From contig CACEIY010000002.1 of the NCBI GenBank assembly GCA_902559635.1, positions 1-64,000 of the forward strand: 64,000 bases of DNA, given 5' to 3'. Positions within the stretch are counted from its first letter, which is position 1; each line of letters begins with the position of its first letter. The notes beneath the pieces are model-generated. The model was not told the DNA's origin. It was given only the letters and a program-made list of their open reading frames with translations, and ran no database searches. Position numbers and translations under genes: made by a program. Positions 39,170 to 62,669 of the stretch are shown here, piece after piece. This stretch comes from an uncultured Pelagibacteraceae bacterium. GTDB taxonomy: Bacteria; Pseudomonadota; Alphaproteobacteria; Pelagibacterales; Pelagibacteraceae.

Positions 39170-41509
39170 ATGTCGCAAACTACTTTAAATATCAAAGAGC
39201 CTGGTTTAAATGTTTTACCACCTGGAGTTGAAAGACATGTAGTAAATGCTGGTGGACTTACAGGTTTTCAAATTTTTCCAGACGACGAAATAGAAATTAT
39301 TAATGACGAAGGAAATCAAATTTGTGAAGTAGTTTGTTTTGATAAAGATGGAAAATCTGAACTTGGAATTTTAAGTCAAAAAGAATCTAATAAAAAAAGT
39401 TTTATTAAAGAAATATTAAAAAACAAAGACGAAAGTTCTTTAGCAGCAAATCTTCAATTAAAAAAAAGAAATTTAAAAATAAACGAGTCAAAATCATCAA
39501 TTTTATTTGATGACAAAACTCCAAGTGGTGAGAAAATTAAGATTAAATCAAAAGATAAATGTTATGCTATTTTTGCAGCGCCACAAAATGATATGTTGGT
39601 AAGTGAACAAAATCCTTCAAGTGATTTAACAATATTTATAAAAAGAGACAAAATAGTTAACGATAAAGAATTGTCTATTATACCTGATCCAATTTTTGAA
39701 CCAAATTATGAACAAAATATTTTGAAACAAACTGCAATTTCTTTTCAAGTAAAAGAAGGAGACTTTATTCAAGTAATCAGTCCAGCAGGAAGACAATGCT
39801 CCGACTTTGTTGCATTTGATACAAAAAAACTAGATAAAAAAATTGAAAAAGGTCTTGATTGGCAAACCACTAGAACATTTATGGGTAATACCTTTCCTGG
39901 ACCTGGTCTATTCTCAAAATTTTATGATACTGACCACGAACCACTAGTAGAGGTTGTTAGAGATACTGTCGGAAAACATGATACTTTTAATTTAGCTTGT
40001 ACTTCAAAATATTATGAAGACGCTGGTTATTTTGGTCATCCTAATTGCTCTGATAATTTAAGCAACTCAATGTCTAAATTTGGGGTTCAAAAACAAAAGG
40101 GTTGGCATGCCATAAACTTATTTTTTAATACTTCAGCTTCAGGTTTAAATTCTGTAATTTCTGATGAGTCATATGCAAGACCCGGTGATTACGTAATGTT
40201 TAGAGCTTTAAAAGATTTAACTATTGGAACAACTGCCTGTCCAAGTGATATTGATGCATGTAATTCATGGAATCCTACCGACATTTTTGTTAGAACGTAT
40301 GACAAAAAAAAAGAATTTTCAAAATCATTTGCTTTTAGAATGAAAACTGACTCAGAAAAAAAATTAACTAGAAACTCTGGTTTTCATCCTAGAACTTCAA
40401 AATTAACTAGAAACTTTATAGATGCTAGAGGTTTTTGGTTGCCTAACGATTATACCAAACATGGTTTAGTAGAAGAATATAATGCCTGCAGAGAAAAGGC
40501 AGTATTAATTGATTTATCATCTTTAAGAAAATTTGAAATAATTGGTCCAGATGCTGAAGAATTAATGAATTATACTCTCACAAGAAACATAAAAAAACTT
40601 TCAGTTGGTCAGGTTGTTTACTCTGCAATGTGTTATGAAAATGGAATGATGTTTGATGATGGCACTCTATTAAGATTAAGTGAAACAGGTTTTAGATGGA
40701 TTTGTGGAGATGAATATGCTGGAGAATGGTTAAAAGAAATAGCCAAAAAGAAAAATTTTAAAGTAAATATAAAAAATTCTACAGATCAAATTAGTAATGT
40801 TTCAATTCAAGGTCCAAAAAGTCGAGATATACTAAAAAAAATAATTTTTACACCACCTACCCAACCTTCTATTCAAGAATTAGAATGGTTTAGATTTTCC
40901 ATTTGCAGAGTCGAAGAACTTCAAGGAATTCCCTTGATTGTATCTAGAACAGGTTACACTGGTGAACTTGGTTACGAAGTATGGTGTCATCCAAAACACG
41001 CGCCTGAAGTATGGGATAAACTTATGGAGGCGGGAAAGAAAGATGGTTTAATTCCTGCAGGTTTTGCAGCGCTAGATAAATTGAGAATTGAGGCAGGGTT
41101 AATTTTATTTGGTAATGAATTTGATGGACAACAAGATCCTTTTGAAGCTGGAATTGGTTTTGCAGTTCCACTTAAAACTAAAGAAGAAGATTTTATAGGA
41201 AAAGATATTTTGAAAGAAAGAAAAACTAATCCACAAAAAAAACTTGTAGGTTTAGAGCTTATTGGTAAAGAGCCGTCAGGACATGGAGATTGTGTTCATA
41301 TAGGAAGATCCCAAGTCGGGATAGTTACAAGTGGATGTTTATCAACAACCCTCAATAAAAATATAGCATTGTGTAGGATTGACAGTCAATATTCAGAGCC
41401 AGGAACAAAAGTTGAAGTTGGAAAAATCGATGGCCATCAAAAAAGAATTTCTGCTCAAGTAGTGTCATTTCCACATTTTGACCCTAAAAAGACTAGAGTA
41501 CGATCTTAA
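39170..41509 (+). CDS. tdm: Trimethylamine N-oxide demethylase (N-terminal DUF1989-type plus C-terminal GcvT domain)
   Basis: DUF1989-like region FIQVISPAGRQCSDFVAFD ... DAGYFGHPNCSDNLSNSM; GcvT region ISRTGYTGELGYEVW; next to TMAO transporter and tmm. Confidence 0.9.
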   Translation: MSQTTLNIKEPGLNVLPPGVERHVVNAGGLTGFQIFPDDEIEIINDEGNQICEVVCFDKDGKSELGILSQKESNKKSFIKEILKNKDESSLAANLQLKKRNLKINESKSSILFDDKTPSGEKIKIKSKDKCYAIFAAPQNDMLVSEQNPSSDLTIFIKRDKIVNDKELSIIPDPIFEPNYEQNILKQTAISFQVKEGDFIQVISPAGRQCSDFVAFDTKKLDKKIEKGLDWQTTRTFMGNTFPGPGLFSKFYDTDHEPLVEVVRDTVGKHDTFNLACTSKYYEDAGYFGHPNCSDNLSNSMSKFGVQKQKGWHAINLFFNTSASGLNSVISDESYARPGDYVMFRALKDLTIGTTACPSDIDACNSWNPTDIFVRTYDKKKEFSKSFAFRMKTDSEKKLTRNSGFHPRTSKLTRNFIDARGFWLPNDYTKHGLVEEYNACREKAVLIDLSSLRKFEIIGPDAEELMNYTLTRNIKKLSVGQVVYSAMCYENGMMFDDGTLLRLSETGFRWICGDEYAGEWLKEIAKKKNFKVNIKNSTDQISNVSIQGPKSRDILKKIIFTPPTQPSIQELEWFRFSICRVEELQGIPLIVSRTGYTGELGYEVWCHPKHAPEVWDKLMEAGKKDGLIPAGFAALDKLRIEAGLILFGNEFDGQQDPFEAGIGFAVPLKTKEEDFIGKDILKERKTNPQKKLVGLELIGKEPSGHGDCVHIGRSQVGIVTSGCLSTTLNKNIALCRIDSQYSEPGTKVEVGKIDGHQKRISAQVVSFPHFDPKKTRVRS

Positions 41510-50569: not shown

Positions 50570-51925
50570 ATGAAAAAGAAAAAAAAGTCTAATAATTTCG
50601 TTAACAAGAAAAGACGAAAAGTAATTAAGACTCTTGGTACGGCAGCTTTAATAGCAGGTGCTTCAAATTTTTTACCTATGCCATGGGTAAGAAAGGCAGA
50701 TGCATCTAATCACTTATTAATAGGTGTGCCTTCATCTTTATCAACACCTTATGGTGTGGCAGATGACCAAGATCATTTGAATGGTACAATAATGGCAATA
50801 GAAGCAATCAATGCTAAAGGTGGAGTAAAGGGAAGAGAGTTGAAAACTTTTGTACCTGATTATGATAAACTCTCAGCAGAAAGTACACAATCTGCGATAG
50901 CTGCTTGTATAGACAAAAAAGTTCATGCAATATCAAATGCATTTACTTTTGCTCCAATTCCTGGAATGGATACATCAACTAAATGGAAAGCTCCATATTT
51001 ACAAGGTAATACTCAGAGACTTGCTACAGAGGAATTCAAAAAAAATCCTAAGAAGTATAGTCACGTATTACAAACCGATCCATCCGAGGTAAATTATGGT
51101 TGGACTTATCCAATGTGGCTTGATGCAATGAAAGCAACAGGAACATGGAAGCCTGTTAACAATAAAGTTCACATAATCTCTGAACAAACTGGTTATAATC
51201 AAACAATTTTGAAAGCTGCAAAAGAGTCTTTAGCAAAATCTGGTTGGGAATTAGCTGGTGATACACAAATTCAGTATCCTGTAAATGATTGGGCGCCAGT
51301 AATACAAGAGCTAAAAAAGGTAGGTGCTGGAGCAATTATGTGTAACCACTGGATGGCTGCTGAAGAAGCTGCTTTTTGTAAACAGTTTAGAGCTGATCCT
51401 GTACCAGGAGCTTTAGTCTATGTGCAGTATGGTGCTTCTCAACCAGAGTTCTTGGAACTTGGTGGAAGAGCAATGGAAGGTTTCTGTTGGAGTACAGTTC
51501 TAGGTATATATGGAGACAAAATGGGAGAAGATTTTAGAAAAGATTATCTAAAAAGATTCCCAGAGTTTGGAACATATAAGGATAACACAATGGGACTTGT
51601 TTACACTGGTAATGGGTATGACATTGTAAATTATCTAGCTGCTTCTTGGAATGCTACTGGAGCTCTCGGGCTTAATGATGCTGATTTCAAGAAAAATTGT
51701 GATTGGATAAGAACTAATCCTTTTAGAGGTGTTTGTGGAATGATGGACATGAATAATGAATATCAAGAAGCTTTACACTTCCCGGATAATGGATTTGGAA
51801 ATCAATCTGACTCTCATGAAACTGGAATGGGACAATTGTTTGTTCAAGTTCAAAATGTTCAACACAGGATCATATGGCCAAACGAGTATAGCCAATCTAA
51901 ATTAGAGGGTTGTGACTGGTGGTAA
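50570..51925 (+). CDS. Urea/amide-type (branched-chain family) ABC transporter substrate-binding protein with Tat-like signal
   Basis: KKRRKVIKTLGTAALIAGASNFLPMPWVRKADA; LIGVPSSLSTPYGVADDQDHLNGTIMAIEAINAKGGVKGRELKTFVPDYD. Confidence 0.9.
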   Translation: MKKKKKSNNFVNKKRRKVIKTLGTAALIAGASNFLPMPWVRKADASNHLLIGVPSSLSTPYGVADDQDHLNGTIMAIEAINAKGGVKGRELKTFVPDYDKLSAESTQSAIAACIDKKVHAISNAFTFAPIPGMDTSTKWKAPYLQGNTQRLATEEFKKNPKKYSHVLQTDPSEVNYGWTYPMWLDAMKATGTWKPVNNKVHIISEQTGYNQTILKAAKESLAKSGWELAGDTQIQYPVNDWAPVIQELKKVGAGAIMCNHWMAAEEAAFCKQFRADPVPGALVYVQYGASQPEFLELGGRAMEGFCWSTVLGIYGDKMGEDFRKDYLKRFPEFGTYKDNTMGLVYTGNGYDIVNYLAASWNATGALGLNDADFKKNCDWIRTNPFRGVCGMMDMNNEYQEALHFPDNGFGNQSDSHETGMGQLFVQVQNVQHRIIWPNEYSQSKLEGCDWW

Positions 51926-52003: not shown

Positions 52004-52729
52004 ATGAATAAAGTTTTGGCTAAAGATTTTTTTTCCTGCAAAAATATTAGCATTGACTTAGGTGGAAGAGAAATATTAAGAAATATAAATATAAACATAA
52101 AGCCAGGTGAAGTTTTAGGTATTATTGGTCCAAATGGAGCGGGAAAAACTTCTTTAATTGAAATACTTTCAGGTAGATACAAACAAAAAACTGGTGATGT
52201 AATTTACAAAGACCAAATTATTAATAACAAACCTCTTTATGAAAGAGCAAGAATGGGTATTGGAAGAACTTACCAAACTCCAGTCGTACCTGAAGAATTA
52301 ACAGTTGGTGAAACTTTAAAAGCTGCAAGACAATCAACAAAACCTTATTTACCAGTTACAGATGCAGAATATGCAGCAGATTTGGTAAAATTTAAAGTTA
52401 GCTGGGATATGGCTAATACAAAATTAGAAACTTTTAATAGAAGAAAACTTTTAATGACTAGTGTTCTAATGAGAGAACCAGAAATTATATTAATGGATGA
52501 GCCAGCTTCAGGTTTGATAAATGCGGAAATAGATGAAATTGATAATACACTCAGAATGTTGTCGAAAGAAATGAACATAGCAGTTTTGATTGTAGAACAT
52601 AGAATTGAATTGCTAGAGACAATTGCAGATAGAGTTGTTGTAATGGATGCTGGTGAAATTATTGCAGAAGGAAATTTAGAGGAAGTTATTAATAATCCAA
52701 AAGTAAAAGAAGCTTATTTTGAGGGTTAA
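52004..52729 (+). CDS. ABC transporter ATP-binding protein, LivG/UrtD-like
   Basis: IIGPNGAGKTSLIEILSGRY; GIGRTYQTPVV; ILMDEPASGL. Confidence 0.92.
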   Translation: MNKVLAKDFFSCKNISIDLGGREILRNININIKPGEVLGIIGPNGAGKTSLIEILSGRYKQKTGDVIYKDQIINNKPLYERARMGIGRTYQTPVVPEELTVGETLKAARQSTKPYLPVTDAEYAADLVKFKVSWDMANTKLETFNRRKLLMTSVLMREPEIILMDEPASGLINAEIDEIDNTLRMLSKEMNIAVLIVEHRIELLETIADRVVVMDAGEIIAEGNLEEVINNPKVKEAYFEG

Positions 52730-52734
52730 ATTTT

Positions 52735-53445
52735 ATGAGTAATATTTTAGAAATTAAAGGTTTGTCAGCAGGCTATGGACCTCTTCGTGTTATTCATGAT
52801 TTAGATTTAATAATCCAATCAGGAGAACGAGTAGGAATTGTAGGCTTAAATGGTCATGGCAAAACAACATTATTTTATGCGATTGCAGGTCTTACTCATT
52901 GGCAAAGAGGATCGATTAAGATCAGTGGAGAAGAAATTGGTCGAACAAGAAGCCAAGGTCCTGGAAGATATACTCACATTGTAGTTAAAAAAGGTTTGGC
53001 AATTATGCCTCAAGGTGATGAAATTTTTCATGGTCTTACCGTTGAGGAACATTTAGATAGTGGTGCATTCACACCTGAGTCTTGGAAAAATAGAAAACAA
53101 AAAAGAGAGGAAATTTTAGAAATTTTCGAGCCTTTAAAAAAACTAATCCACACTCCTGTAGCACGTTTATCTGGAGGAGAAAGAAGAATGGTTTCTATAG
53201 GAAGAGGAATGATGTCAGAAGCTAAGCTTTACATGGCAGATGAGCCAACCTTAGGATTAGCACCAAAAATTGGAAAGGGTGTTCTTGAGGCACTGTTAAA
53301 GATTGACTTGAAAGACTCTGCAATGATTATTGCTGAACAAAACGTAGCCTTACTAGAAGGAAAGGTAGATAGAATTATTGGTATGCATGCTGGTAAATTA
53401 AAAGGAGAAGCATCATCATCATTGTCTATGGGATTAAAAAACTGA
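52735..53445 (+). CDS. ABC transporter ATP-binding protein, LivF/UrtE-like
   Basis: IVGLNGHGKTTLFYAIAGL; LSGGERRMVSIGRGMM; YMADEPTLGLAP. Confidence 0.92.
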   Translation: MSNILEIKGLSAGYGPLRVIHDLDLIIQSGERVGIVGLNGHGKTTLFYAIAGLTHWQRGSIKISGEEIGRTRSQGPGRYTHIVVKKGLAIMPQGDEIFHGLTVEEHLDSGAFTPESWKNRKQKREEILEIFEPLKKLIHTPVARLSGGERRMVSIGRGMMSEAKLYMADEPTLGLAPKIGKGVLEALLKIDLKDSAMIIAEQNVALLEGKVDRIIGMHAGKLKGEASSSLSMGLKN

Positions 53446-53448
53446 TTT

Positions 53449-54333
53449 ATGAATGATATTATTTTTTTAATTATTAACGGAATTACAGTAGCTTCCATAT
53501 ATGGGCTTATCGCTGTAGCAGTATCAATAACTTGGTCAGCATTGGGATTATTAAACCTAAGTTACGGTTTTATATTTTCATTTGCTGGATATGGAGCATG
53601 GTTAGCTGAAAGACATTTATATGGAGAACCAATTTTTGTAATGTTCATGGGAATAACTGCAGGAATAATTGGTGGTGTAATGGTGTGCTTGCTTGTATTT
53701 ATCCCAGTTCACGATAAACCAAATTTTACTATTAGAGGCATGATAGGGACATTAGCAATTAGTCTAATTGGAGGACAAATTTTACTTCAAAATTTTGGGC
53801 CTAAAGCAAAACTCCTTCCAGAATTTTTTGGTTATGGAAAATTAAAAATTTTAGATGTTACTTTGACTGCAGATAAAATTGGAATAATTTGCTCGTCAAT
53901 TATAATGCTTACACTTGTTGTAAGATGGATGAAATCTAGCAGAAGAGGATTGGAAATTAGAGCGATGATGATGAACCCTCATGCAGCAAGTATTGTTGGG
54001 ATTGGAGTGCGTAAAACAGGAATATATGTAATGGCAGTAACTGGAGCCATGACAGGTTTATCAGCTGTGCTACTTTCACAGACATATTATCTTTCACCTT
54101 TTAGTGGCCTTATTCCAATGATTAAGGGTGTAAGTATAGCTTTAATGGGCGGACTAGGAAGCGTCAGAGGAGCTGTAATTGCTGCAATTATACTTGGATT
54201 TAATGAGGCACTAACTACAAAATTTTTGGGTGGAAGATATGTTTTAATGACTCAATTTGCACTAATTATAATTGTACTTATTATCAGACCAAGAGGTATT
54301 GCTGGTATTTTAGATAAGGCGAGAGAAGCATGA
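53449..54333 (+). CDS. ABC transporter permease, LivH/UrtB-like
   Basis: Multi-TM NGITVASIYGLIAVAVSITWSALGLLNLSYG; KGVSIALMGGLGSVRGAVIAAIILG. Confidence 0.92.
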   Translation: MNDIIFLIINGITVASIYGLIAVAVSITWSALGLLNLSYGFIFSFAGYGAWLAERHLYGEPIFVMFMGITAGIIGGVMVCLLVFIPVHDKPNFTIRGMIGTLAISLIGGQILLQNFGPKAKLLPEFFGYGKLKILDVTLTADKIGIICSSIIMLTLVVRWMKSSRRGLEIRAMMMNPHAASIVGIGVRKTGIYVMAVTGAMTGLSAVLLSQTYYLSPFSGLIPMIKGVSIALMGGLGSVRGAVIAAIILGFNEALTTKFLGGRYVLMTQFALIIIVLIIRPRGIAGILDKAREA

Positions 54334-55988
54334 GTGATATCAAAACAAAAAAAAGAAAAACTTGGAAAAACCCATTGGCAGTATGGGGAGCCAAAGGTGG
54401 AAATCACGAAGTAGCAACACCTGAGTGGAAGAATCCACATCAAATTTGGAAAGATACTAAAGCATTTAAAGTCCCTACAAATAAAATTGGAAGATTTCAT
54501 TATGAATATAAATCTAGCAATCATGGTGAAAAAATATGGAACAGATTAAGATGGTGGCCAACAAGAAGAACAATACTTTGGACACAAGGTGTTTATAATA
54601 GAAAAAGTCTTAAACCAGAAAAAATTAGAAAAGATAAAAGACCAATATTTTGGTTTTTAAGTTTGGTATTATTGGTAATTGCTCCTTTCATTTTGCCTGA
54701 GGGATATAAAAATAGTTTATTAACTGCTGGAGGAATATTTGGTATCTATGCATCAATAAATCTTTGCTGGACACTTGTTATTGGAACTGCAGGAATATTT
54801 TCTTTAGCTACATATGCCATAGTTGGAATGTCAGCATTTTTAACTACCTGGTTATCAATAAATTTGGGCTTACCCTGGTGGATGTTACCAATGATTGGTA
54901 TGTTTGTTGGGCTAGCTTTTGGAATAATAATAGCTTTACCCGCTTTAAGATTAGATGGATTTTATTATGGACTTTTAACTCTAGGTCTTAACGAACTTTG
55001 TAGAGTATTTATCACAACTTCACATGCATTTGGAGCTGCATCTGGTGGATTATATGGAGCTGATACTTTTATTAATGAAAACTGGGCACCTATGACACAA
55101 ACTCTCGTACAGTATTATTCTGGATTTGCATTATTAATTGCTGCACTTTTTTTATTTAGATTTGTAGATGGCAAAAGATTAGGTAGAATTCTAAAATTAG
55201 CGCCTGAAAAAAAAGAAGCTTTTGCAGAAGCATCAGGTGTTAACTATAAGAGGGCAAGAGTTACTGTCTTTTTAATATCATCAATCGCATTAGGATTTAT
55301 TGGAGGGTTTTATGCTGCTTATTATAGAGGTAGTGCATTTGATATATTCTCTTTTCATACTGTAATCATGGGTTTAGCAATGATTACAATTGGTGGTATT
55401 GGAAGAGCTGATGGTGCTGTTGCAGGTACTTTAATTATAGTAATTATAGATAGAGTTCTAGTAGAACTTGGTCCATGGAGATATATTATAATAGGATTTG
55501 TAATGATGTTTACAATCCTTTTTTTGAAAAATGGATTATTTGGAATAAGAAAACAATTTAGAGATTGGAGAGATAAGAAAAAAGGTGAAGCAAGATCATC
55601 AAGATTAGAAAGAGGAGGAGAAATGTTACCAGAGCAAGCAACTGAGACAGATAATAAAGATGAAATATACAGAAGAAGATATGACAAAATGCAAAGAGAG
55701 TTTTTAAAAACTCTAATTTGTGATGAGATAATTGAAGAACATAAACAAAAACCTTTAGGACAGCACAGTGAAGCTTTGGAAAGAGTTTGTTATTATTTTA
55801 GAAGAGGTGCTATGAATGATAAATATGTTGTAAAGTGTGAGGTGCCTTTTAAGAAATATAAAATAATGGCTCTTTCGGGAGTAAGAGGAAGATCGCCTAG
55901 ACTTGTTGAGGATAAAATATATGAAACAGTTGAGGCTGCTTATCATGGTCTGTTCTTAAGAAGAATTCAAGATTTAATGGAGGCATAA
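54330..55988 (+). CDS. LivM/UrtC-like ABC permease fused at its C-terminus to an N,N-dimethylformamidase small-subunit (DmfA1)-like domain
   Basis: Core: LCWTLVIGTAGIFSLATYAIVGMSAF... MITIGGIGRADGAVAGTLIIVIIDRVL. C-terminus IIEEHKQKPLGQHSEALERVCYYFRRGAMNDKYVVKCEVPFKKYKIMAL...YETVEAAYHGLFLRRIQDLMEA resembles DmfA1 (recalled pattern EEHxxxPxG...LxRVxxYFR...KYxxxxExxxxxYxIAxx...AxHxxFLRRIxD). About 110 aa hydrophilic N-terminal extension. Confidence 0.85.
   Translation: MSDIKTKKRKTWKNPLAVWGAKGGNHEVATPEWKNPHQIWKDTKAFKVPTNKIGRFHYEYKSSNHGEKIWNRLRWWPTRRTILWTQGVYNRKSLKPEKIRKDKRPIFWFLSLVLLVIAPFILPEGYKNSLLTAGGIFGIYASINLCWTLVIGTAGIFSLATYAIVGMSAFLTTWLSINLGLPWWMLPMIGMFVGLAFGIIIALPALRLDGFYYGLLTLGLNELCRVFITTSHAFGAASGGLYGADTFINENWAPMTQTLVQYYSGFALLIAALFLFRFVDGKRLGRILKLAPEKKEAFAEASGVNYKRARVTVFLISSIALGFIGGFYAAYYRGSAFDIFSFHTVIMGLAMITIGGIGRADGAVAGTLIIVIIDRVLVELGPWRYIIIGFVMMFTILFLKNGLFGIRKQFRDWRDKKKGEARSSRLERGGEMLPEQATETDNKDEIYRRRYDKMQREFLKTLICDEIIEEHKQKPLGQHSEALERVCYYFRRGAMNDKYVVKCEVPFKKYKIMALSGVRGRSPRLVEDKIYETVEAAYHGLFLRRIQDLMEA
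55613..55625 (+). promoter_or_regulatory. Candidate internal ribosome-binding site and start codon for a free DmfA1-like polypeptide
   Basis: AGGAGGAGAAATG: AGGAGG at 55613-55618, in-frame ATG at 55623, at the start of the DmfA1-like domain; would give 121 aa. Confidence 0.5.
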
Positions 55989-55989
55989 A

Positions 55990-58317
55990 ATGGCAGAAAT
56001 AAAAGTATTCGGATATACAGACAAACTCTCAGTTAAACCAGGAGATAAAATAGATTTTCATGTATCTGCAGATGGAACAAAAACTGTGAACGCACAATTA
56101 GTAAGATTAATTCACGGAGATGAACATCCTAATGGACCTGGATATAACGATGAAGCAGTGGATTGTAAACTAAATGGAGTTTGGAATGTAAAAAAACAAT
56201 TTACTCAACTTGGTTCATTTTTAAAAGTTGAAGATCCAAATAATCACCTTGCTATCGATGGAGATTTTACTGTTTTTGGATATATCAACCCATCAACACC
56301 TCATACTGGGGCTCATCAGTGGATATTTTGCAGATGGAATAATAAAACAAATGAAGGTTATGGAATCGGTATTAATAAAGATGGCCATTTAGAATTAGTA
56401 GTTGGTGATGGAAAAGAAGTTGACTATTTAGTTTCTGAATTACCAATAGTTAAAAAGATTTGGTATTTTGTGGCTGCAACATTCAATTATAAGACTAAAG
56501 AAGCAACCTTATATCAAGAGGGAGTAGTTAATCGCTATAATTCATTACTTGGAAAAGTTGTACCTTACGACTACAGGTCTCACACAAAAACAACTTTTAG
56601 ATTTAAACAAAAAAATAATCCTAAAACACCTTTTATAATTGCAGGAGCAATAGATAATCATGAATTGAGAGGTGATTTTGTCTCTGGAACTTTTGCAGGA
56701 AAAGTAGATAGACATGGTGTTTGCAATAAAGTTTTATCAAAAGATGAATTAGACAAAATGAAACTTGGTGAAATGCCACCAAAAGAAAGCATTGCCGCTT
56801 ATTGGGATACTACTGAAGGATATAATGAAAATGGTATCAGCAATACTGTTATAGATATTGGTCCTAATAAATTAAATTCAATCGGATACAATCATCCTGT
56901 TAGGGCAATGACTGGTTGGAATTGGTCTGGGAAAAATGACTGTTTTAGACTAGCTCCTAAAGAGTATGGAGGGGTTGATTTTCATCCTGACTCAATTACT
57001 GATGCGAAGTGGGATGTTACAAATTCATTAATAATACCAGATAATTTAAAGAGTGGTGCGTATGCAATGAGATTAAAAGCTGGCACAAATGGAAGTCAAC
57101 TTAGTGAAGAATATATTGTATTCTTTGTAAGAGCAAAAGTTCCAAAAGCAAAAATATGTTTTTTATTTCCAACAGCAAGTTACCTTGCCTATGCTAATGA
57201 AAAACTAAGTTTTGAAGCTCAAATAATTCAACCAATGACAGGTCAACCACCAACTATTACTGATATAGATGTTGAACAATATAAAAATCCAGAGTTTGGT
57301 TTATCAACGTATGATAGTTACGCGGATGGAGGTGGAGTATGTTTTACTTCATATCGAAGACCAATTGTAAATATGAGGCCAAAGTATAGAACTTCAGGAA
57401 TGGGTATTACCTGGCAGTTTCCAGCTGATTTATCAATAATTGGTTGGTTAGAACATCATTATAAAGATGAATATGAAATTCTTACAGATGAAGATGTTCA
57501 TTTGGAAGGGATTGATGCGTTAAAGCCTTACAATTGCGTAATATCTGGAACTCATCCTGAATACACTTCTGAAAAAATGCTAGATGCTTTTGAAGATTAT
57601 GTGGCAGAAGGAGGAAGATTTATTTACATGGGTGGTAATGGTTTCTATTGGGTTGTAGGTCATTATGAAAATGAACCATGGTGTTTAGAAGTAAGAAAAC
57701 TAGATGCTGGTATGAGAGCTTGGGCTGCTAAACCAGGAGAATATTATATGCAAACAACTGGCGAAAGAGGAGGTTTATGGAGAATGAGAGGCCGGGCTCC
57801 TCAAAAATTCTCAGGAGTAGGATTTATAGCCGAAGGTTTTGACACTGCCGAAACTTATAGGAAAATGCCTGATGCATGGCATAGAACTGTTTCTTGGATT
57901 ACTGAGGGAGTTGAAGGAGAAATTTTTGGTGATCACGGATTAGCTTATGGAGGTGCAGCAGGAATAGAGTTAGATAGATATGATCTTTCTTTAGGAACTC
58001 CGCCTCACACAAAAATAGTTGCATCATCTGGTGGTCACAGTGATAATTATGTTCTTGTAACTGAGGAGCTTCTTTATGCTTACGCGGGTTTAGTTGGATC
58101 TTTAGATTATAGAATAAGAGCTGATATGACCTATTTTACAGCACCAAATGAAGGTGCAGTGTTTTGTACTGGATCAATTGGTTACGGTCAATCATTGCCA
58201 TGTAATAATTTCCAAAATAATACCTCAACAATTCTTAAAAATGTTGTAAATGCATTTTCAAAAGAAAAAAAACTACCTGGTGGTCTATGGACTCTAGAGG
58301 AGAAACAGTGGAAATAA
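55990..58317 (+). CDS. dmfA2: N,N-dimethylformamidase large subunit (DmfA2)-like protein
   Basis: 775 aa; lectin/LamG-like region (HTGAHQWIFCRWNNKTNEGYGIGINKDGHLELVVGDG) and DMFase C-terminal region (TYDSYADGGGVCFTSYRRPIVNMRPKYR ... YMGGNGFYWVVGHYENEPWCLEVRK). Starts 1 nt after the DmfA1-like fusion gene. Confidence 0.88.
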   Translation: MAEIKVFGYTDKLSVKPGDKIDFHVSADGTKTVNAQLVRLIHGDEHPNGPGYNDEAVDCKLNGVWNVKKQFTQLGSFLKVEDPNNHLAIDGDFTVFGYINPSTPHTGAHQWIFCRWNNKTNEGYGIGINKDGHLELVVGDGKEVDYLVSELPIVKKIWYFVAATFNYKTKEATLYQEGVVNRYNSLLGKVVPYDYRSHTKTTFRFKQKNNPKTPFIIAGAIDNHELRGDFVSGTFAGKVDRHGVCNKVLSKDELDKMKLGEMPPKESIAAYWDTTEGYNENGISNTVIDIGPNKLNSIGYNHPVRAMTGWNWSGKNDCFRLAPKEYGGVDFHPDSITDAKWDVTNSLIIPDNLKSGAYAMRLKAGTNGSQLSEEYIVFFVRAKVPKAKICFLFPTASYLAYANEKLSFEAQIIQPMTGQPPTITDIDVEQYKNPEFGLSTYDSYADGGGVCFTSYRRPIVNMRPKYRTSGMGITWQFPADLSIIGWLEHHYKDEYEILTDEDVHLEGIDALKPYNCVISGTHPEYTSEKMLDAFEDYVAEGGRFIYMGGNGFYWVVGHYENEPWCLEVRKLDAGMRAWAAKPGEYYMQTTGERGGLWRMRGRAPQKFSGVGFIAEGFDTAETYRKMPDAWHRTVSWITEGVEGEIFGDHGLAYGGAAGIELDRYDLSLGTPPHTKIVASSGGHSDNYVLVTEELLYAYAGLVGSLDYRIRADMTYFTAPNEGAVFCTGSIGYGQSLPCNNFQNNTSTILKNVVNAFSKEKKLPGGLWTLEEKQWK

Positions 58318-58410: not shown

Positions 58411-59295
58411 ATGTGTGGAATAGTAGGAATTTATCTAAAATCCAAAAAATATGAGAGTTCTTTAGGGAACATGCTCTCAAATATGCTTATAAATATGGGT
58501 TCTAGAGGGCCAGATAGTGCGGGATTTGCTATTTATAAAGAAGATGAAGAGGAAAATTTCAAGTACTCACTATGCTTAAATGGCTACGATTTTGAAAAAT
58601 TTAAAAAGGAAATTGTAAATAAAATTACCATTTCAAATATTGGAAAAAACTCTGATCATGTAATCATGAAATCCAAAAGTCAACCGAGTGATGTAATCGA
58701 AATACTCAATAAAAATTTTAAGGAAATTTCAATTGTTGGCTATGGTAAATCTATTGAAATATTTAAACAAGTTGGAGAACCTAAAGATGTTGTAAAAAAA
58801 TTTAATCTTGTTAATTTTAGTGGCACACATGCTATTGGTCATACTAGAATGGCTACAGAAAGTGCAATTACTACTGATGGTTCTCATCCCTACTCAACTG
58901 GAGAAGATGAATGTTTAGTGCATAATGGATCATTATCTAATCATAATAACCTAAGAAGAAAATTAAAAAAAAATGGTATAAATTTTAATTCAGAAAATGA
59001 TACTGAAGTTGCCGCAGGATATATTTCTAATAATTTATCAAATAAAGAAAGTTTAAAAGATACCCTTAAAAAATGTCTAAAAGATTTAGACGGATTTTAT
59101 ACCTTTATAACAGGCACAAGAAAAGGATTTGCAGTTTTAAGAGATGAGATTGCATGCAAGCCAGCTGTAATAGCAGAAAACGATGACTATGTAGCTATCG
59201 CATCAGAATTTCAAGCTATGGCTCATTTACCAAATGTAAACAATGCTAATATTTTTGAACCAGAACCTGGCGTAGTCTACTCGTGGGGAAATTAA
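58411..59295 (+). CDS. mgsA: Class II glutamine amidotransferase-domain protein, MgsA-like (copy 2)
   Basis: MCGIVGIYL; GSRGPDSAGFAIY; GHTRMATESAITTDGSHPYS; LVHNGSLSNHNNLRR. Confidence 0.87.
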   Translation: MCGIVGIYLKSKKYESSLGNMLSNMLINMGSRGPDSAGFAIYKEDEEENFKYSLCLNGYDFEKFKKEIVNKITISNIGKNSDHVIMKSKSQPSDVIEILNKNFKEISIVGYGKSIEIFKQVGEPKDVVKKFNLVNFSGTHAIGHTRMATESAITTDGSHPYSTGEDECLVHNGSLSNHNNLRRKLKKNGINFNSENDTEVAAGYISNNLSNKESLKDTLKKCLKDLDGFYTFITGTRKGFAVLRDEIACKPAVIAENDDYVAIASEFQAMAHLPNVNNANIFEPEPGVVYSWGN

Positions 59296-59978
59296 TGGAA
59301 TTAGATTTAAAAAAACTTAAGTTAAGAGAAGTAAATAATAAATTACAAAATTTAGACCATAAACAAAATCAAAGAGACTTTACTATAACAAACCCTGAGG
59401 GAAATCACGCTATATGTGCAGGCTTAACAGAAGAAATGAATGTAACGATTAAAGGTCATGTTGGATATTATTGTGCAGGCATGAATCAAAAAGCAAAAAT
59501 AACTATTGATGGAAATGTGGGAACAGGTGTTGCAGAAAATATGATGTCGGGAATAGTTCATGTTAAAGGAAATGCGTCTCAATCTGCTGGGGCTACTGCA
59601 CATGGAGGATTATTAATTATAGATGGAGATGCAAGTTCAAGATGTGGGATTTCAATGAAAGGAGTAGATATAATAGTCAAAGGATCTGTTGGCCATATGT
59701 CTGGCTTTATGTCTCAATCAGGCAATTTAATTGTATGTGGAGATGCTGGGGAAGCTCTAGGAGATAGTTTATACGAAACTAATATCTATATTAAAGGTAA
59801 TGTTAAATCATTAGGAGCTGATTGTGTAGAAAAAAAAATGGATAAAAATCATGTTAAAAAATTAAATAAATTTTTAAAAGAAGCTAAAATAAAAAATCTT
59901 AAAGCGAAAAATTTCAAAAGATATGGATCAGCAAGAAAATTATATAACTTTAAAATAGATAACATTGCAAATTATTAA
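59295..59978 (+). CDS. mgsB: Glutamate synthase GXGXG-domain protein, MgsB-like (copy 2)
   Basis: GYYCAGMNQKAKITIDGNVGTGVAENMMSGIVHVKGNASQSAGATAHGGLLIIDGDAS. ATG 59295 (TAATG overlap) preferred over GTG 59283. Confidence 0.88.
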   Translation: MELDLKKLKLREVNNKLQNLDHKQNQRDFTITNPEGNHAICAGLTEEMNVTIKGHVGYYCAGMNQKAKITIDGNVGTGVAENMMSGIVHVKGNASQSAGATAHGGLLIIDGDASSRCGISMKGVDIIVKGSVGHMSGFMSQSGNLIVCGDAGEALGDSLYETNIYIKGNVKSLGADCVEKKMDKNHVKKLNKFLKEAKIKNLKAKNFKRYGSARKLYNFKIDNIANY

Positions 59979-59980
59979 CT

Positions 59981-61309
59981 ATGAAAAAAAATAACAAAAC
60001 TCACCCAAGGCAATCCTGGACATTTGATGAGTATACTAATTCAGAAATAAGAAGAGCGGCATCTACTGGGATATATGATATTAGAGGTGGAGGATCAAAA
60101 AGAAAACTTCCCCACTTTGATGATTTACTTTTTTTAGGAGCCTCAATGTCAAGATATCCTTTAGAAGGCTATAGAGAAAAATGTACCACAAATGTTACTT
60201 TAGGTACTCGATATGCAAAAAAACCTTTAAGGCTCGACATACCTATCACAATAGCAGGAATGAGTTTTGGTGCTTTGTCTGGACCAGCTAAAGAAGCATT
60301 GGGAAGAGGTGCAAGTGCAGCTGGTACCTCAACTACTACTGGTGATGGAGGTATGACACCAGAGGAAAGAGGTCAGTCTAAATACTTAGTTTATCAGCTT
60401 CTTCCATCTAGATATGGGATGAATCCTAATGACTTGAGAAAAGCAGACGCTATTGAAGTGGTTATTGGACAAGGAGCAAAACCAGGAGGTGGTGGAATGT
60501 TATTAGGTCAAAAAATAAATGATCGAGTAGCAAAAATGAGAACATTGCCTAAGGGAGTTGACCAAAGATCTGCTTGTAGACATCCTGATTGGACAGGACC
60601 AGATGATTTAAAAATAAAAATTTTAGAGTTAAGAGAAATAACTAAATGGCAAGTCCCAATATTTGTAAAAATAGCTGGAGCAAGACCTTATTACGACACA
60701 GCCTTAGCTGTTAAAGCTGGTGCTGATGTTGTTGTACTAGATGGTATGCAAGGTGGTACTGCAGCAACACAAGAAGTTTTTATTGAAAATGTTGGTCAAC
60801 CAACTTTAGCTTGTGTAAGACCAGCTGTAGATGCTTTACTAGATTTAGATGTTCACCGAGATGTTCAACTTGTAATATCTGGGGGTATTAGAAATGGAGC
60901 GGATGTAGCAAAAGCTTTAGCGTTAGGTGCAGATGCAGTATCCATTGGAAGTGCTGCGATGATTGCTATTGGCGATAATGATCCAAAATGGGAAAAAGAT
61001 TATAAAAAATTAGGAACTACAGCAGGTGCCTATGATGATTGGCATGAAGGAAACGATCCAGCTGGTATATCAACTCAAAATCCAAAATTAATGAAAAGAT
61101 TAGATCCAATTAAAGCAGGCAGAAAACTTACAAATTTTTTAAAAGTTATGACTTTAGAAGCTCAAACACTTGCTAGAGCATGTGGAAAAAATAGTTTACA
61201 TAACCTTGAACCTGAGGATTTATGTGCCTTAACAGTTGAAGCAGCAGCAATGGCTAGAGTACCTTTAGCTGGAAGTAGTTGGATACCAGGAATAAATGAA
61301 AAAAAATGA
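59981..61309 (+). CDS. mgsC: Glutamate synthase FMN-domain protein, MgsC-like (copy 2)
   Basis: DIPITIAGMSFGALSGPAKEALGRGASAAGTSTTTGDGGMTPEERGQSKYLVYQ; VVLDGMQGGTAAT. Confidence 0.93.
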   Translation: MKKNNKTHPRQSWTFDEYTNSEIRRAASTGIYDIRGGGSKRKLPHFDDLLFLGASMSRYPLEGYREKCTTNVTLGTRYAKKPLRLDIPITIAGMSFGALSGPAKEALGRGASAAGTSTTTGDGGMTPEERGQSKYLVYQLLPSRYGMNPNDLRKADAIEVVIGQGAKPGGGGMLLGQKINDRVAKMRTLPKGVDQRSACRHPDWTGPDDLKIKILELREITKWQVPIFVKIAGARPYYDTALAVKAGADVVVLDGMQGGTAATQEVFIENVGQPTLACVRPAVDALLDLDVHRDVQLVISGGIRNGADVAKALALGADAVSIGSAAMIAIGDNDPKWEKDYKKLGTTAGAYDDWHEGNDPAGISTQNPKLMKRLDPIKAGRKLTNFLKVMTLEAQTLARACGKNSLHNLEPEDLCALTVEAAAMARVPLAGSSWIPGINEKK

Positions 61310-61343: not shown

Positions 61344-62669
61344 ATGCCAAAAAATTTATCTCAAATTGCTAAACAAAAAAAAATTAAATATTTTTTAATT
61401 AGTTTTGTAGATTTATTTGGTGTTTTAAGATCAAAATTAGTTCCTTCCCAAGCAATATCAGAAATGCAAAAAAATGGTGCAGGATTTGCTGGATTTGCAA
61501 CTTGGCTTGATATGACACCAGCTGATAGTGATATGTTTGGTGTACCCGACCCAAATAGCTTGATTCAATTACCCTGGAATAAAGAAATAGGTTGGTTGGC
61601 TTCAGATTTATATATGAATGGCAAACCAGTTAAAGCCTCACCAAGAATAATGTTGAAAGAACAAATTAAAAAACTATCTCAAAAAAAACTTCAGATGAAA
61701 TCAGGTGTCGAATGTGAATATTTTTTAATTTCAGAGGATGGTTCTAAAATTGCAGATTCAAGAGATATTCAATCAAAACCTTGTTATGATCAATCAGCTC
61801 TAATGAGACGTTATGATTTAATTAAAGAAATTTGTAACAGCATGATTGAACTTGGATGGAAGCCTTATCAAAATGATCATGAGGATGCTAATGGTCAATT
61901 TGAAATGAATTGGGATTATTCAGATAGTTTAGTAACTGCAGATAGACATGTATTCTTTAAATTTATGGTCAAGAGTTTGGCTGAAAAACATGGTTTAAGA
62001 GCTACATTTATGCCTAAACCTTTTCATAACCTAACCGGAAATGGATGTCATGCTCATGTTTCTGTTTGGAATGGTAAAAATAATAAGTTTTTAGATAACA
62101 AAAATAATCTAGGATTAAGCAAACTTGCATATAATTTTTTGGGTGGAATTATGAATAATGCACAAGCCTTATCAGCTTTTTTTAACCCAACAATAAATAG
62201 TTATAGAAGAATTAATGCGCCTCCAACTAAATCTGGAGCGACTTGGTCACCAAGTAGTATTTCATATACAGGTAATAATAGAACTCATATGATTAGAATA
62301 CCAGACCAAGGAAGATTTGAACTTAGACTAATGGATGGTTCAGCAAACCCATATTTACTTCAAGCAGGTATAATCGCAGCTGGTTTAGAGGGAATAAATA
62401 AAAAATTAAATCCAGGAAAGCCATTACACTGCAATATGTATACTGACTATAAGAAATATCCTAAGCTTAAAAAACTTCCCAACGATGTTGGACAAGCAAT
62501 TAAACTTTTAGAAAATAGTAAATCTTTAAATAATGCTTTTGGTAAAGATGTTATTAAAAGTTATGTTAAATTAAAAAATTCAGAAATTAAAGATTTTAAA
62601 AGGAAAGAAACTTTCAATAAAAAACGACCTGTTACAATGTGGGAGAGAAATAATACCTTAGATTGCTAA
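61344..62669 (+). CDS. gmaS: Gamma-glutamylmethylamide synthetase / type III glutamine synthetase (GmaS/GlnT family)
   Basis: KYFLISFVDLFGVLRSKLVPSQAISEMQKNGAGFAGFATWLDMTPADSDMFGVPDPNSLIQLPW; YQNDHEDANGQFEMNW; directly downstream of mgsABC copy 2. Confidence 0.88.
   Translation: MPKNLSQIAKQKKIKYFLISFVDLFGVLRSKLVPSQAISEMQKNGAGFAGFATWLDMTPADSDMFGVPDPNSLIQLPWNKEIGWLASDLYMNGKPVKASPRIMLKEQIKKLSQKKLQMKSGVECEYFLISEDGSKIADSRDIQSKPCYDQSALMRRYDLIKEICNSMIELGWKPYQNDHEDANGQFEMNWDYSDSLVTADRHVFFKFMVKSLAEKHGLRATFMPKPFHNLTGNGCHAHVSVWNGKNNKFLDNKNNLGLSKLAYNFLGGIMNNAQALSAFFNPTINSYRRINAPPTKSGATWSPSSISYTGNNRTHMIRIPDQGRFELRLMDGSANPYLLQAGIIAAGLEGINKKLNPGKPLHCNMYTDYKKYPKLKKLPNDVGQAIKLLENSKSLNNAFGKDVIKSYVKLKNSEIKDFKRKETFNKKRPVTMWERNNTLDC

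Follow-up and report, generated by a model that had tools for sequence, protein, structure and literature searches.

Organization of the locus

The window analysed here is a 64,000-nt stretch of DNA from an uncultured SAR11 bacterium (Pelagibacteraceae). On its forward (+) strand, the genes of an ABC importer are tightly packed in the order of a periplasmic substrate-binding protein (50570–51925), a LivG/UrtD-like ATPase (52004–52729), a LivF/UrtE-like ATPase (52735–53445) and a LivH/UrtB-like partner permease (53449–54333). The end of the last gene is overlapped by 4 nt by the start of livM::dmfA1 (54330–55988), a single intact open frame of 552 aa in which a second permease is fused to the small subunit, DmfA1, of N,N-dimethylformamidase (DMFase). 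Its stop codon (TAA, 55986–55988) is separated by 1 nt from the ATG (55990) of dmfA2 (55990–58317), which encodes the large, catalytic subunit of 775 aa and has a GGAGG ahead of its start (55979–55983). The DmfA2 product matches the Paracoccus large subunit (6lvb_A) over its full length with 599 bits, compared with 371 for an N-acetyl-beta-phenylalanine acylase relative.

GATase/GXGXG/Glu_synthase trios and glutamine synthetase-like genes flank this importer-enzyme operon on both sides. The downstream trio (58411–61309) resembles N-methylglutamate synthase (mgsABC/glxBCD), and the synthetase that follows it (61344–62669) is of type III and resembles gamma-glutamylmethylamide synthetase (GMAS; TIGR03105, 627 bits). 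An ammonium-transporter gene lies upstream of the operon. Upstream of the methylamine-type genes, at 39170–41509, a DUF1989 domain is fused to a GcvT-like aminomethyltransferase.

The fusion protein begins with an extension of 103 residues (54330–54638), for which a Pfam search gave no match. This extension is positively charged and common to fused permeases across lineages, between which it is ~40% identical. The permease core (residues 104–399; 54639–55526) has about ten transmembrane helices and contains a BPD_transp_2 domain (Pfam, residues 137–395, E = 1.9e-23). Together with the partner permease, the two ATPases and the binding protein, this identifies it as a HAAT-type permease. LivM and UrtC are the nearest NCBIfam profiles, and both score far under their equivalog cut-offs (63 bits against 366 for LivM, PRK11301; 32 bits against 296 for the urea permease UrtC, TIGR03408). 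A charged linker (residues 400–448; 55527–55673) with an invariant Glu-Lys/Arg-Gly-Gly-Glu at 427–431 leads into the DmfA1 domain (residues 449–549; 55674–55976). Ten helices are predicted. Positive charges lie at the N-terminus, in the loop facing the ATPases and in the C-terminal tail, and by the positive-inside count this predicts an N-in/C-in topology, which would place both the N-terminal extension and DmfA1 in the cytoplasm.

The C-terminal domain is DmfA1

Residues 449–549 align nearly end to end with residues 24–127 of the 132-aa Paracoccus small subunit (6lvb_B; E = 2.8e-8 with the whole protein as query, and 3.8e-9 with the last 123 aa alone). The fold agrees. The best PDB match of the full-length AlphaFold model, whose pLDDT is only moderate (62), is again 6lvb_B (E = 1.2e-4, TMt 0.79), and the isolated-domain model (pLDDT 81) superposes on it with an E of 4.9e-7, a TM of 0.79–0.81 and an rmsd of 1.8 Å (Foldseek). 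This model has the four helices and two strands of DmfA1, with long N- and C-terminal helices (H19–38, H41–49, H57–68, E73–81, E85–92, H110–127). The comparisons in sequence and predicted structure confirm a real DmfA1 domain. The original prediction had named DmfA1 from its sequence pattern, as the tail of a LivM/UrtC-like permease in one 552-aa frame with a DmfA2-like gene starting 1 nt later; each of these points is borne out.

The fused domain is under strong purifying selection, with a dN/dS of 0.017–0.031 in SAR11 pairs. In the window DmfA1 is encoded in frame with the permease rather than as a separate polypeptide, and a free form would have to come from an internal start at Met432.

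A candidate internal start in the linker

Hidden in the linker DNA, and new here, are a Shine-Dalgarno (SD) site and an in-frame ATG. The sequence GAA AGA GGA GGA GAA ATG contains AGGAGG (55613–55618), followed after 4 nt by the ATG of Met432 (55623), from which a nested frame (55623–55988) would encode a free DmfA1 of 121 aa. Among the 414 in-frame internal ATGs of the window, this site has the second strongest SD, the background having been drawn from the window and the fetched loci. Moreover, in Rhodococcus and Caballeronia the free DmfA1 begins within 0–1 residue of Met432, so that the site resembles the former dmfA1 start codon, retained within the fusion.

In SAR11 itself, the strength of the SD is no more than codon usage gives (synonymous shuffle p ~0.4), and the codon evidence therefore comes from GC-rich relatives. 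Synonymous shuffling applied genome by genome as a direct test of the SD gave few individually significant values. Codon-specific contrasts, and contrasts with free-copy genes, were adopted after that test and were chosen after the first set of sequences had been seen. In 30 GC-rich fused genes, the amino-acid-corrected GC3 has a unique minimum at residues 423–436 (z = −4.7; the next is −1.5). The signal falls mainly on Lys428 (AAA) and Gly429 (GGA, GGT or GGG), that is, on the SD itself. The peptide Glu-Lys/Arg-Gly-Gly-Glu that precedes residue 432 never varies, not even in genes that have lost the SD codons, and residue 432 itself can otherwise be Met, Val, Pro, Ala or Leu.

Eleven fused genes have a linked free dmfA1. 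In six (Ensifer, G920, G861, G1611, G1610 and G1621) it lies directly downstream, and in five a second dmfA1-dmfA2 module adjoins the operon. Where no free copy is linked, ATG, GTG or TTG stands at position 432 or 433 in 34 of 34 genes (ATG in 29). With an adjacent free dmfA1, ATG is kept in 0 of 6 (p = 1.2e-4). Likewise, with expected counts taken from each gene's own codon use, AAA at Lys428 is found in 27 of 31 genes without a free copy (expected 6.9) and in 1 of 11 with one (p = 7e-6), and a codon other than GGC at Gly429 in 29 of 31 (expected 11.8) and 1 of 11 (p = 5e-7). The codons kept without a free copy are rare ones that strengthen the SD; genes with a linked copy go back to the default ones. 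All three Fisher p values overstate the independence and strength of the contrast, because the sequences are related and the 11 genes with a linked copy fall in two clades, the copy having arisen only about twice on the tree. Ensifer adhaerens pB illustrates the pattern: fused dmfA1, free dmfA1 and dmfA2 follow one another (L055 9662–10057), and Met432 of the fusion has become Ala.

The prediction for the start codon and GC3 was set down before twelve further genes were fetched. Those without a free copy had a start-capable codon in 7 of 7 and the GC3 dip in 6 of 7; of those with one, the start was lost in 3 of 5 and a start-capable codon still stood in 2 of 5. The GC3 contrast alone was weak in this set (p = 0.10). 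The SD and the in-frame start codon are conserved beyond the need of the protein, and this codon-level selection is lost with a separate dmfA1. On this codon evidence, the gene probably makes two products, a permease-tethered DmfA1 and a free one.

In all 11 genomes with a free dmfA1, the fused domain is full length and in frame and its linker peptide is intact. It is also the fused domain that stays closer to consensus, while the free copy has diverged more (63% vs 41% in Ensifer, for example). Since the fused domain is kept beside a free dmfA1 and its dN/dS is low, both forms appear to be selected.

Distribution and origin of the fusion

The fusion occurs in marine SAR11 and in relatives from soil; ~40 different sequences with it come from SAR11, Hyphomicrobiales and Burkholderiales. 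A scan of 85,462 species genomes gave 21 loci that carry all or part of it, from SAR11, Methylopila, Bradyrhizobium, Methylobacterium, Methyloversatilis and Burkholderiales MAGs, and the conserved operon with the fusion also occurs in Agrobacterium/Rhizobium. In nearly all complete loci the order is sbp-livG-livF-livH-livM::dmfA1-dmfA2. G782 has a porin-like outer-membrane gene (383 aa, identified by eye; L037 1920–3071) between the fusion and dmfA2, which suggests a full uptake route from the outer to the inner membrane in that genome. Twenty-six plasmid records carry the fusion; those that are annotated call it simply a 'branched-chain amino acid ABC transporter permease'.

The fusion is not an artefact of assembly or of a frameshift, since numerous different SAGs, MAGs and isolates have it in a single frame. 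The only broken case seen is the SAR11 genome L028/G001 (also L003), in which a run of eight T instead of seven just ahead of the linker (L028 480–640) puts DmfA1 out of the permease frame and leaves the internal SD and ATG intact; the cause is an error of sequencing or else a fission that arose naturally.

Among 398 Pelagibacterales genomes, 12 have DmfA1, fused in 2 and free-standing in 10. The free-standing SAR11 dmfA1A2 belong to a different branch, ~40% identical, and those fetched are only distant relatives of the fused genes. The possibility that the genes are separate in all close relatives is accordingly rejected for the orthologues. In one such locus (L004 181–4220), the pair adjoins an alpha/beta hydrolase gene and a 121-aa ORF; this is possibly the DMFase that has been reported in the rhodopsin FAR cluster (PMC10308929).

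In the DmfA2 tree, all fused loci fall in one clade (100/100). The clade also takes in Caballeronia and unfused second copies, its only members in which the permease is absent. Methylobacterium DM1, a known degrader of DMF, falls outside it. The simplest reading of the tree is one ancient fusion that spread horizontally, with later losses of the permease, and the free-standing DmfA1 is likely the ancestral state. A free dmfA1-dmfA2 pair is also present in the haloarchaeon Halalkalicoccus jeotgali B3 (L049 2413–2955); its DmfA1 bears the annotation 'inner-membrane translocator', which was probably transferred from relatives that have the fusion.

Active site and likely substrate

Tyr401, Tyr441 and Glu524 of the window's DmfA2 correspond to the iron ligands Tyr399, Tyr440 and Glu521 of the Paracoccus enzyme, and His522 to the catalytic His519. 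Every primary DmfA2 of a fused operon whose sequence spans these positions keeps the ligands and the histidine. The position of Paracoccus Phe693, a pocket-narrowing residue of known DMF degraders, is occupied by Tyr (23) or His (3) in DmfA2 of the fused clade, so the substrate specificity may differ from that of Paracoccus.

Some second DmfA2 copies adjoining a fused operon lack an iron ligand (L019 12034–14803, L020 12059–14831 and L043 18152–20473). Cys replaces the Tyr440 equivalent in two such copies from Bradyrhizobium; in the one from Aminobacter, HPE has become HSA, the Glu521 equivalent being Ala. Judged by these residues, such copies may be inactive partner subunits.

The neighbouring genes bear on the substrate. 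In the window's own genome, which is incomplete (77%), no match was found to PF11927, presumably a marker of dimethylamine demethylase, which is weak evidence by itself. SAR11 genomes have been described as being without dimethylamine monooxygenase (PMC5520151), and DMF would therefore leave them with a dead-end product. For the SAR11 homologues of the flanking genes (glxBCD and glnT), roles as N-methylglutamate synthase and gamma-glutamylmethylamide synthetase have been put forward (PMC3160333). Given the adjoining methylamine genes and the absence of dimethylamine oxidation, release of methylamine by the hydrolase, from N-methylformamide for instance, suits the neighbours and SAR11 metabolism better than action on DMF, which is a doubtful substrate in SAR11. 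Thus, we infer an N-methylated formamide, the place of DMF itself being uncertain; it may be N-methylformamide, for which the kcat/Km of the Paracoccus enzyme is ~24-fold higher than for DMF (PMC7686228). A related second dmfA1A2 of P. aminophilus was not associated with DMF use (PMC4543880).

Discussion

Taken as a whole, we regard it as reasonably probable that livM::dmfA1 is a conserved dual-output gene of an importer-plus-enzyme operon, providing tethered and free DmfA1 for a methylamine route. For the way it would work, we lean to the following model. One frame would encode a permease bearing an obligatory subunit of the enzyme for the imported substrate, and would also yield that subunit unattached, by initiation at the internal start and ribosome-binding site that it has kept. 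How much enzyme is docked at the importer would depend on the proportion of tethered to free product, and lineages that gained a separate dmfA1 would have kept the fused domain and lost the internal signal. The first product would be an importer permease whose C-terminus bears, in the cytoplasm, the small subunit of a DMFase-type iron amidohydrolase. By binding this domain, DmfA2 would hold part of the amidase at the importer. The second, started at Met432, would complete the alpha2beta2 enzyme, and would be needed because a single importer would contribute just one tethered beta subunit. Given the 1-nt gap, dmfA2 would probably be translationally coupled to both. The enzyme could then dock at importers or bridge them and take the amide as it emerges, so that an N-methylated formamide would be imported and hydrolyzed to formate and methylamine, the latter passing to the products of the flanking methylglutamate-synthase- and GMAS-like genes.

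The original prediction held that the fusion could anchor the catalytic complex to the cytoplasmic mouth of the importer. The identity of DmfA1 and, in the survey of related genomes, the conservation of the fusion in SAR11, Hyphomicrobiales and Burkholderiales stand. Tethering is a plausible though incomplete account, consistent with the predicted topology, the invariant linker and the intactness of the fused domain beside a free dmfA1. Two points are amended: the codon-level signs of a free DmfA1 indicate that not all enzyme need be tethered, and SAR11 metabolism and the neighbouring genes make DMF doubtful as the substrate.

Other explanations deserve consideration. All small subunits might sit on importers, the fused protein being the only product and the SD and ATG of the linker a fossil, or a pausing signal that aids membrane insertion or folding. 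An SD-like pause is plausible at a domain boundary, and the linker is evidently constrained as protein, since Glu-Lys-Gly-Gly-Glu is kept where the SD codons are gone. Pausing, however, predicts neither a start-capable codon at 432/433 in every gene that lacks a linked free copy, nor the loss of SD codons and start only beside a separate dmfA1, nor the alignment of the site with the starts of free DmfA1s at a residue that is otherwise variable; we consider this explanation unlikely. The strong signature of an internal start and the likely ancestry of the free-standing form could also be turned the other way, to say that an intergenic stop was lost, that only the internally started DmfA1 matters and that the permease-borne one is a harmless tail. 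A harmless tail would hardly be kept full length, in frame and near consensus in 11 genes whose linked free copy diverges more, nor would its linker peptide be invariant, and within the clade the permease is missing only from Caballeronia and the second modules. This makes such an incidental fusion rather improbable.

Regulatory C-terminal domains occur in some ABC importers, and the fused domain might similarly be a sensor through which DmfA2 binding gates the transporter, by trans-inhibition or activation. Second DmfA2 copies that have lost an iron ligand (the Y440C and E521A equivalents) could in some relatives be regulatory rather than catalytic. No positive evidence was found for this reading, the catalytic residues are intact in the primary DmfA2 encoded by fused operons, and in Paracoccus DmfA1 is required for activity, the small subunit wedging between large subunits that are inactive alone (PMC7686228). 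We therefore hold it to be quite improbable, and retain the model of a dual-output gene.

Paracoccus DMFase (PDB 6LVB, PMC7686228) is homologous to both subunits over their full length, sharing the iron ligands, the catalytic His and the small-subunit fold (TM ~0.8), but its DmfA1 is a free 132-aa protein and not, as in the fusion, the C-terminal part of a permease. With LivFGHM and UrtABCDE the operon shares a five-part gene set and a core matching the LivM/UrtC profiles; it differs by the N-terminal extension, the C-terminal enzyme subunit and the low equivalog scores. The free-standing SAR11 dmfA1A2 are of the same enzyme family and genus, yet are unfused, and L004 showed no linked importer. 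For the dual output, the closest parallel is SctQ/SctQC of type III secretion, where one gene gives the full-length protein and a C-terminal fragment; in YscQ, the fragment is needed for assembly and its internal start is proven by mutation (PMC4295842). In the flagellar FliM/FliN, the fragment is a separate gene, FliN, a parallel to the linked free dmfA1 described above. Unlike the transporter-enzyme considered here, for which internal initiation is what the codons suggest, SctQ builds a structural C-ring. In the open-licence literature we found no published description of, or experiment on, the livM::dmfA1 fusion and no mention of dimethylformamidase together with an ABC transporter, and SAR11 and dimethylformamide met only in chance co-mentions.

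If true, the covalent attachment of an import channel to a required subunit of the enzyme that acts on its cargo would be direct, testable evidence for the coupling of uptake to hydrolysis. Such coupling would be most important where the amide is small and crosses membranes readily, and would otherwise escape from the cell at the minute concentrations found in the open ocean. By keeping the start of the old gene inside the new one, the nested start would leave the fusion reversible, and the genomes with and without a separate dmfA1 form a natural series of ready-made comparisons. Finally, the presence of the operon in streamlined SAR11 suggests a natural occurrence of N-methylated formamides in the sea, beyond their being industrial pollutants.
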